This document shows positions 20,633-22,801 of a stretch of DNA of 64,000 nt, in pieces. The stretch comes from Streptacidiphilus sp. P02-A3a. GTDB taxonomy: Bacteria > Actinomycetota > Actinomycetes > Streptomycetales > Streptomycetaceae. Position 1 is the first letter of the stretch; every line of letters begins with the position of its first letter. A program made the position numbers and the translations under genes. Under the pieces are notes generated by a model. That model worked only from the letters and a program-made list of their open reading frames with translations. It ran no database searches and had not been told where the DNA came from. The DNA lies in the NCBI RefSeq assembly GCF_014084105.1, contig NZ_CP048289.1:5527922-5591921 (forward strand), written 5' to 3'.

Positions 20633-21748
20633 TCAGAAGACGGTCCCCATGGCCGCCCGCACCTGGTCGAGGGTACTCTCGGCGACGGCGCGGGCGCGCT
20701 CGTTCCCGGCGCGCAGGATCCGCCGCAACTCACCCCGGTCGCCGCTGAGTTCGGCGCGGCGGGCGCGGAGCGGCGCCAGGTACCCGTTGACCGCCTCGGT
20801 GACCGTCCGCTTGAGCGCGGCGGCCCCGCCGTCGCCGATCTCGGCGGCGACCTGGTGCGGATCCCGGTCCTGGCAGAGCGCGGCCAGCAGCACCAGGCTG
20901 GAGACCTCCGGGCGGGCGGCCGGGTCGTAGCTGATCCGCCGGTCGGCGTCGGTCTTCGCGCCCCGGATCAGTTGGGCGGTCTCGTCGGCGTCGGCGGCCA
21001 GCGCGATCGCGTTGCCCCGGCTCTTGCTCATCTTGCCGCCGTCGGTGCCGAGCAGCAGCGGCGCGGCCGACAGCAGCGCCTCGGGTTCGGGGAACAGCGG
21101 CCGGTCGGCGGCGTAGCGGTCGTTGAAGCGCCGGGCGATGGTGCGGGTGAGCTCGATGTGCGGCAGCTGGTCCCGGCCGACCGGGACCAGGTTCGCCCGG
21201 CAGAACAGGATGTCCGCCGCCTGGTGCACCGGGTAGGTGAACATCAGGCCGCTGACGGCGGACTGCCGCGAGTGCGCGATCTCGTCCTTGACCGTGGGGT
21301 TGCGGCCGAGTTCCGCGACCGAGACCAGGCTCAGGAACGGCAGCAGCAGCTGGTTGAGCTCGGGGACGGCGCTGTGGTTGAAGATCACCGCCTGCTCCGG
21401 GTCCACCCCGGCCGCGAGGTAGTCCAGCAGCAGGCCCTCGACGTGCTCGCTGAGCCGTTCGGCGACGTCCCGGTCGGTGAGTACCTGGTAGTCGGGGATG
21501 ATCAGGAACAGTTCCACGCCCAGCCGCTGCAACCGGACCCGGTTCTGCAGCGTGCCGAAGTAGTGGCCGAGGTGCAGTCGCCCGGTCGGCCGGTCCCCGG
21601 TGAGTACCCGGAACCGGCCGGGTTCGCGGCGGATCAGCTCCTCCAGCTCGGCACCGCGGCGCTCGGCGGCGGCAGTGGGACCGGCGGGCGTGGGATCGGC
21701 GGGCGGCGGGTCGGCGACGGCGGCGGGTGCGACGAGCGCGGTGCTCAT
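20633..21748 (-). CDS. trpS: Tryptophanyl-tRNA synthetase
   Basis: The 371-residue class Ic synthetase charges tRNA-Trp. It carries the HIGH-type motif as HLGHYFG and the KMSKS loop intact in GGKMSKSRGN. GDRPTGRLHLGHY and the RNPTVKDE and FTYPVHQAADIL stretches are typical. The N-terminal ~35 residues are an Ala/Pro-rich extension. Start at 21748 follows AGGAGAAGTCC. A short leader frame with two adjacent Trp codons and a hairpin lie 90-180 bases upstream, so expression probably rises when charged tRNA-Trp falls. Streptomycetes often carry two trpS genes, with the attenuation-controlled copy linked to indolmycin resistance; that parallel is inference. Confidence 0.92.
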   Translation of the reverse strand: MSTALVAPAAVADPPPADPTPAGPTAAAERRGAELEELIRREPGRFRVLTGDRPTGRLHLGHYFGTLQNRVRLQRLGVELFLIIPDYQVLTDRDVAERLSEHVEGLLLDYLAAGVDPEQAVIFNHSAVPELNQLLLPFLSLVSVAELGRNPTVKDEIAHSRQSAVSGLMFTYPVHQAADILFCRANLVPVGRDQLPHIELTRTIARRFNDRYAADRPLFPEPEALLSAAPLLLGTDGGKMSKSRGNAIALAADADETAQLIRGAKTDADRRISYDPAARPEVSSLVLLAALCQDRDPHQVAAEIGDGGAAALKRTVTEAVNGYLAPLRARRAELSGDRGELRRILRAGNERARAVAESTLDQVRAAMGTVF

Positions 21749-21836
21749 GGACTTCTCCTGACAGGCGGGATCGGGCGGAAGGGCGCGGCCGGAGCGGTCC
21801 GGACGGCAGTCCACGCGGTGCCAGGGGGCGTGCGGC

Positions 21837-21860
21837 GGGGCCGTCCGAAAGAACGGCCCA
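21837..21860 (-). terminator. Candidate attenuator hairpin in trpS leader
   Basis: A 7-base perfect stem (GGGCCGT with ACGGCCC) around an 8-base loop lies between the Trp leader frame and trpS. An upstream GGAGCGG could pair with CCGCTCC further down as an antiterminator. Confidence 0.5.
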
Positions 21861-21885
21861 GGTCATGCGGGGAGAGTGGCCGCTC

Positions 21886-21927
21886 CTAGGAGGAGCGCCA
21901 CCAGCAGAGACACGTCACAGCATGCAC
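21886..21927 (-). CDS. Trp-codon leader peptide of trpS
   Basis: The frame GTG CAT GCT GTG ACG TGT CTC TGC TGG TGG CGC TCC TCC TAG encodes a 13-residue peptide with two adjacent Trp and two Cys residues. It starts 31 bases after the pentapeptide gene stop and ends 137 bases before the trpS start. A shorter version from the second GTG is also possible. Tandem Trp codons followed by a hairpin are the hallmark of ribosome-mediated attenuation. The ribosome site is weak (GAAG). Confidence 0.6.
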   Translation of the reverse strand: MHAVTCLCWWRSS

Positions 21928-21958
21928 GTCTTCACAGTAGCGCACGCCGTCGGCGCGG

Positions 21959-22801
21959 TCAGCTGTGCTGCCGCACCGGCCAGTGCCCGGGGCGGCTGAA
22001 GCCGGGCGGGAGCCGGGTGGCGGCGTCGCCCTTGGCGGCCTCCAGCTGCGGCTGGGTCAGGAAGACGCTGCCGGTGAGGTCCGCCCGGGACAGGTTCGCG
22101 CCGCGCAGGTCGGCGCCGATCAGGTCCGCGCCGCGCAGGTCCGCGCCGGTGAGGTCGGCGCCGATCAGGTAGGCCCCGCGCAGGTTCGCTCCGGCCAGGT
22201 CGGCCCCCGCCAGCCTGGCCCCGACCAGGTCGGCGCCCCGGCGCTGCTTCTTCCGGTCGGCCAGGGTGTCCGCCCGGACCAGTTCGCTGGTGCGCAGCAG
22301 CAGCTCGTTGACGGCCTGCCAGTGCGCGTTCGCGTCCAGCGCCAGCAGTTCCTCCGGGCTGCCGAGGGTCAGCCGCTCGGTCCGCTCGCGGAGCAGCGCC
22401 AGCTCCGGGTGCAGCGGTTCGGCCTGCGGCAGGGCCAGCGCCTGGGTCAGGTACCAGAGCAGTTCCTGGAGGTCCCGGACCACCGGGAACACCTCGAACA
22501 TCCGCCGCGCGGTGCGCGGGGCGCCGCGCCAGTCCTGGCCGCCGAAGGTGACCTGGGAGACCTTCTGCCCGGCGCCGAAGCAGTCGTAGACGGTGCAGCC
22601 CGGGTAGCCGGAGCCGCGCAGCCGGGTGTGGATGCCGCAGCGGAAGTCGGCGGACAGGTTGCCGCAGGGCTTCCCGGCGGGCTTGGTCGCGGCGAAGTCG
22701 GCCGAGGCGGTGAAGGCGGGGGCGACGCAGCACAGCGCGAAGCAGCTGCCGCAGTCCGCGCGCAGGTCGGCCGGGAGCTGCGGCTCACGGTGCTCGGACA
22801 T
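21959..22801 (-). CDS. Pentapeptide-repeat protein with Cys-rich N-terminus
   Basis: The 280-residue protein has two parts. The first ~100 residues are Cys-rich ([34 protein letters not shown]) and could bind a metal. Residues ~185-250 are a run of A(D/N)LxG pentapeptide repeats ([28 protein letters not shown]) that would form a right-handed quadrilateral helix. Pentapeptide proteins include DNA-gyrase protectants, but many have no known role. The gene lies just upstream of the trpS leader on the same strand and may read into it. A hairpin separates it from the amidohydrolase gene. Confidence 0.85.

Follow-up and report, generated by a model that had tools for sequence, protein, structure and literature searches.

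Attenuation of genes coding for spare tryptophanyl-tRNA synthetases (TrpRS) has been described for a few Streptomyces species. For instance, a classical attenuator of trpS2 was predicted by sequence comparison in S. avermitilis in 2005 (PMC1262725); it is of the same classical type as the element presented below and is itself a prediction only. For S. coelicolor, the title of the report by Vecchione and Sello (2010, J Bacteriol 192:3565), as cited in PMC4787780, announces attenuation of an auxiliary, antibiotic-resistant trpS (SCO3334), so that the precedent mentioned in the initial annotation exists at least as a reference title. In S. lividans, a close relative of S. coelicolor, the trpS leader trpL2, whose peptide (MMTRTCTQLWRAA) contains one Trp, was mapped in 2021 (PMC8079986). 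The trpL2-trpS region of S. lividans TK24 comprises a leaderless leader of 13 codons and two hairpins, with no uridine-enriched stretch, and the trpS behind it is monocistronic (PMC8079986). The Streptomyces trpE leader trpL1 (MFAHSTRNWWWTAHPAAH) is also a leaderless Trp leader with competing hairpins (PMC8079986).

The element studied here and the trpS gene that it precedes are located on the minus strand of a 64-kb stretch of DNA, called the window (Table 1). This trpS is similar to SCO3334, known here from the title and its citation, in being an auxiliary gene beside a housekeeping copy, with ribosome-mediated attenuation predicted for it. However, SCO3334 belongs to the WblC regulon (PMC7157823), whereas the window trpS has no WblC box. 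With trpL2-trpS, the window locus shares a 13-codon and probably leaderless leader, two hairpins and the lack of a uridine-enriched stretch, but its peptide has a different sequence, in which a tandem Trp (WWRSS) replaces the single Trp of trpL2. The organization also recalls that of trpL1, although trpL1 controls tryptophan synthesis and the window leader would control tRNA charging, and the two peptides differ. From its sequence, the window element appears to work like the known Streptomyces attenuators, and it carries the defining features that were tested except for the U-tract. The features particular to this copy are a GTG start, the lack of a U-tract, a promoter that overlaps a non-conserved pentapeptide gene, and the lack of a WblC box.

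Table 1. Features of the attenuator and trpS locus, in window coordinates and in the order of transcription.
Feature	Position	Strand	Basis
-35-like element CTGACC	21957..21962	-	read from sequence; overlaps the pentapeptide gene's stop codon
-10 element TACTGT	21934..21939	-	6 nt before the leader GTG
Leader peptide gene, MHAVTCLCWWRSS and stop	21886..21927	-	13 codons, GTG start 21927, TAG stop ending 21886
Tandem Trp codons TGG TGG, proposed stall site	21898..21903	-	read from sequence and comparison
Hairpin 1:2 (anti-antiterminator), with the leader stop codon inside it	21875..21902	-	folding and compensatory changes
Antiterminator segment 2, AGGAGCGGCC	21878..21887	-	modelled pairing and covariation
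Antiterminator segment 3, GGCCGTTCTT	21849..21858	-	same bases as the terminator 5' arm
Terminator hairpin 3:4, GGGCCGTTC-TTTC-GGACGGCCC, 9 bp, no U-tract	21838..21859	-	-16.5 kcal/mol
Shine-Dalgarno AGGAG of trpS	21755..21759	-	read from sequence; 6 nt before ATG 21748
Auxiliary tryptophanyl-tRNA synthetase gene (trpS1 type)	20633..21748	-	TIGR00233 match, 231 bits (cut-off 176.75 bits)

Two trpS matches were found in the genome, which consists of one contig of 9.33 Mb. Since the second copy (G000:C1:8233660-8234643) has a better score and lies elsewhere, the window gene is regarded as the auxiliary one. Among solved structures, its product is closest in sequence to 1yi8 and to 2a4m, which is named tryptophanyl-tRNA synthetase II; many Streptomyces orthologues show about 70-78% identity. 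The window TrpRS has Gln (context DYQVLT) at the position of His43 in the B. stearothermophilus numbering. Gln is found there in all 92 readable copies of the auxiliary type, and His in all 15 readable copies of the housekeeping type. The change of His43 to Asn has been reported to confer indolmycin resistance (PMC4899734), and the auxiliary TrpRS of S. griseus has been reported to be indolmycin-resistant (PMC6804068). Because of this Gln and of both precedents, the window TrpRS is likely to be indolmycin-resistant.

A short frame with TGC TGG TGG had been noticed ahead of trpS. This frame was found again, with trpS downstream; its codons (GTG CAT GCT GTG ACG TGT CTC TGC TGG TGG CGC TCC TCC TAG) code for MHAVTCLCWWRSS, TGC TGG TGG occupying positions 21906-21898 of the minus strand. 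In L015 (MHRALCLSWWRSS), the nearest relative, an ATG stands at the aligned position of the GTG start. The -35-like and -10 elements are separated by 17 bp and the former fits nTGACn, the -35 consensus of S. lividans (PMC8079986); most relatives have a weak -35. A TAnnnT box is present before the leader start in all 80 loci with a strict leader (see below), at 6 nt in 68 of them and at 7 nt in 12, the background for such a box at that spacing before any ATG or GTG of the same loci being 0.6%. In S. lividans, transcription start sites lie on average 6.3 nt downstream of the -10 box, and trpL2 was mapped as leaderless (PMC8079986). Because of the constant position of the box and of these S. lividans data, the window transcript probably begins on the leader GTG or immediately beside it, giving a leaderless mRNA. 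The leader bears the marks of a translated frame and is predicted to be translated.

The pentapeptide-repeat gene located upstream (22801-21959, minus strand) ends 31 bases before the leader start, the distance given in the initial annotation. No relative of its product was found beside trpS in any other locus compared. For this reason, co-regulation with the pentapeptide gene was rejected, and the leader and trpS are considered a unit of their own with an incidental neighbor. The pentapeptide-repeat protein has a Cys-rich N-terminal part (CGSCFALCC), and it resembles Alr5209-type pentapeptide proteins, though with a score under the family cut-off.

Three mutually exclusive pairings can be formed after the leader codons: hairpin 1:2, the antiterminator 2:3 and the terminator 3:4. 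Hairpin 1:2, composed of GGTGGCGCTCCT/AGGAGC-g-GCCACT (21902-21875), overlaps the Trp and stop codons and is an addition to the one hairpin and the possible alternative pairing previously proposed. That alternative pairing corresponds to the antiterminator, in which AGGAGCGGCC (21887-21878) and GGCCGTTCTT (21858-21849) form 10 pairs, two of them G-U, and which shares a strand with the terminator. The hairpin had been presented as a stem of 7 bp; this 7-bp core is real, but the stem is better described as one of 9 bp, in which GGGCCGTTC (21859-21851) pairs with GGACGGCCC (21846-21838). The three pairings are placed in such a way that a stall at the Trp codons frees segment 2. The fold energy of the whole region (z = -0.92) is not unusual for such G+C-rich DNA; it was not significant and was dropped as evidence, so that the case is comparative rather than energetic. 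The pattern TGSTGGCGSTCCTCSTAGGAGCGGCC has a single match in the 9.33-Mb genome, at the window attenuator, and its reversed control has none.

The competition between pairings was also calculated. In the window RNA ending before segment 4, the probability of 1:2 is about 0.91 and that of 2:3 about 0.01 when the RNA is free, whereas 2:3 reaches 0.99-1.00 when a ribosome, whose footprint in the folding model is an assumption, is placed on the first Trp codon. Over the 80 loci, the median probability of 2:3 is 0.001 in the free and 0.994 in the stalled model, and in the latter it exceeds 0.5 in 79 of them. In the complete RNA at equilibrium, the terminator 3:4 is favored in all states, including that with a stalled ribosome. 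Equilibrium folding with a blocked ribosome was therefore rejected as a test and replaced by the stepwise co-transcriptional calculation; for the same reason, the switch must be kinetic.

It is thus very probable, function being deduced from sequence comparison, that this element is a ribosome-mediated transcription attenuator controlling the auxiliary trpS. This agrees with the initial annotation, whose verifiable points were all borne out. The RNA would start at or next to the leader GTG, the ribosome loading on its 5' end. With ample Trp-tRNA, the ribosome would reach the stop codon inside hairpin 1:2 and segment 2 would be either covered or held in 1:2, leaving segment 3 to pair with segment 4; once 3:4 is formed, RNA polymerase would halt before trpS. 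Trp-tRNA could become scarce if tryptophan ran short or if a drug, for instance indolmycin, inhibited the housekeeping TrpRS. In either case, the ribosome would stall on TGG TGG, covering segment 1, and the freed segment 2 would pair with segment 3 before segment 4 exists, allowing the transcription of trpS. The Gln-type TrpRS produced, probably less sensitive to indolmycin, would let translation recover. The elements of this scheme that we infer are the start site, the translation of the leader, termination in the cell, the response to Trp or indolmycin and the resistance of the enzyme.

The comparison covered 93 orthologous trpS loci, 13 from the same genus (the window locus included) and 80 from named genomes. 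A strict leader with tandem TGG precedes 80 of the 93 genes, the presence of both TGG in 80 of these 80 loci being a consequence of the search rule. The carriers include Streptomyces, Kitasatospora, Nonomuraea, Microbispora, Planotetraspora and Actinomadura and represent several actinomycete families. These leaders have 11-18 residues (13 in 58 of the 80 loci), and WW followed by RSx or PS and the stop is conserved across them, 65 ending in WWRSS or a close variant and 15 in WWPS. L059 and L097 fail the tandem rule, yet they keep the architecture with one Trp. L066 and L101, both truncated at a contig end, also fall outside the strict set. Several of the 93 orthologues, including three Micromonospora loci, lack such a leader. 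In a second sample of family genomes, leaders of this kind were found before nearly all of 31 loci; that of L130 has a single Trp, and no leader was found at L123 and L139. G001, the only congener in which this trpS is missing, shows no match to the leader pattern either. A TrpRS-like match with in-frame TAG codons in a congener (L029) was discarded, the match being on the strand opposite to the one translated. In L040, also outside the strict set, the later hairpins remain, but what appears to be the end of a transposase gene takes the place of the leader codons, a natural disruption.

Covariation supports two of the three pairings. The inner six pairs of 1:2 are formed in 479 of 480 cells of the 80-locus alignment. 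Double compensatory changes are seen in four of these pairs (G-C/C-G, C-G/G-C, T-A/C-G and C-G/T-A), a result reached by none of 1000 shuffles. The antiterminator 2:3 pairs in 98.0% of the cells, against 95.9% in shuffles, and again none of 1000 reaches it. One of its pairs switches from A-U to G-C, with a double change in 19 loci, and a further core pair becomes A-U by changes on both sides in L118, L136 and L143, from a sister genus. The shuffle tests take no account of the relatedness of the sequences; nevertheless, several distinct changes are seen, among them R-type versus P-type leaders and the CGCCTC, CGCCCC and CGACC variants. The stem of 3:4 is nearly invariant, with no compensatory double changes, and covariation says little about it. 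Since the change of Arg-Ser-Ser to Pro-Ser goes with a preserved hairpin, selection appears to act on RNA pairing rather than on the residues after Trp-Trp, and the alternation between WWRSS and WWPS constitutes a natural test of this point. Attenuation of a spare TrpRS, described for a few Streptomyces, would thus occur in several actinomycete families, backed by strong covariation of the RNA. The spread to Nonomuraea, Microbispora, Planotetraspora and Actinomadura and the covariation go beyond the texts cited here and may have been reported elsewhere.

One departure of the window copy concerns the terminator. Its 9-bp stem is present, as an intrinsic terminator requires, but it is followed by CGCCGCAC, and the 8 nt after the stem contain no T. 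Most relatives have a U-tract: at least three T (3-6) follow the stem in 70 of the 79 loci in which it could be measured, and 3-5 T in the other measured members of the genus. S. lividans trpL2 is likewise reported to have no uridine-enriched stretch (PMC8079986). In the window, either the hairpin alone suffices or termination is weakened; it may be weak, Rho-dependent or lost. This copy is thus a natural experiment on the requirements of an actinomycete terminator.

The lack of a U-tract bears on two other explanations. The window element could be the decayed homologue of a working attenuator, its trpS being now mostly constitutive. The loss of a tract still present in the other congeners measured and the replacement of ATG by GTG in the leader point in this direction, and decay does occur, as leaders without trpS behind them are found in G023 and G119. 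However, the leader frame, both TGG, 1:2, 2:3 and the 9-bp stem of 3:4 are all intact here and trpL2 is reported to share the same lack, making decay unlikely. It is more doubtful still that control is exerted through translation of trpS or through Rho instead of intrinsic termination. Such control would agree with a terminator without U-tract, but hairpin 3:4 ends about 80 nt before the Shine-Dalgarno of trpS, which it leaves uncovered, and the U-tracts of most relatives point to intrinsic termination as the ancestral state. The leaders of G023 (L147) and G119 (L148) belong to this type too and are not followed by a matching trpS; the hairpins and U-tract are kept in G119 and only the first hairpin in G023. 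They look like relics left after loss of the synthetase gene.

Other explanations concern the peptide and chance. The nascent peptide, for instance through its conserved Cys before Trp-Trp, might contribute to stalling. A Cys is present in 73 of the 80 leaders, usually 1-3 residues before WW, but it is missing from some complete leaders such as MKRFAGLNWWPS, RSS gives way to PS after WW in parallel with RNA pairing, and shared ancestry accounts for the remaining conservation of Cys. A contribution of the peptide is therefore very improbable. We give equally little credit to an extension of this idea, in which a conserved Cys-x-x-Trp-Trp nascent chain would also promote stalling, so that the element would directly sense a Trp-like drug or free tryptophan and would terminate without a U-tract here. 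A short frame and hairpins arising by chance in G+C-rich DNA would be compatible with the modest z-score, but conservation of the leader and pairings before about 80 of 93 orthologues, covariation and the single genomic occurrence refute this explanation, whose probability is practically nil. Attenuation by the translating ribosome remains the preferred reading.

A T-box riboswitch or another Rfam element was discarded, since rRNA was all that the window yielded when scanned against Rfam at gathering scores. With respect to WblC/WhiB7, the promoter criterion is a GAAAWY box 3 nt upstream of the -35. No GAAA was found within 70 nt upstream in the window copy and no such box in the genus, and WblC control of the window trpS was rejected for lack of it. 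S. coelicolor SCO3334 is listed as WblC-activated (PMC7157823). In 17 of 79 loci (L043, L044, L049, L051, L058, L061, L063, L065, L068, L070, L073, L075, L079, L081, L091, L099 and L100), GAAA forms a sharp cluster 43-46 nt ahead of the leader start, approximately the position of a WblC site expected from the S. coelicolor study (PMC7157823). This suggests that WblC activation and attenuation act together in some species, others relying on attenuation alone.
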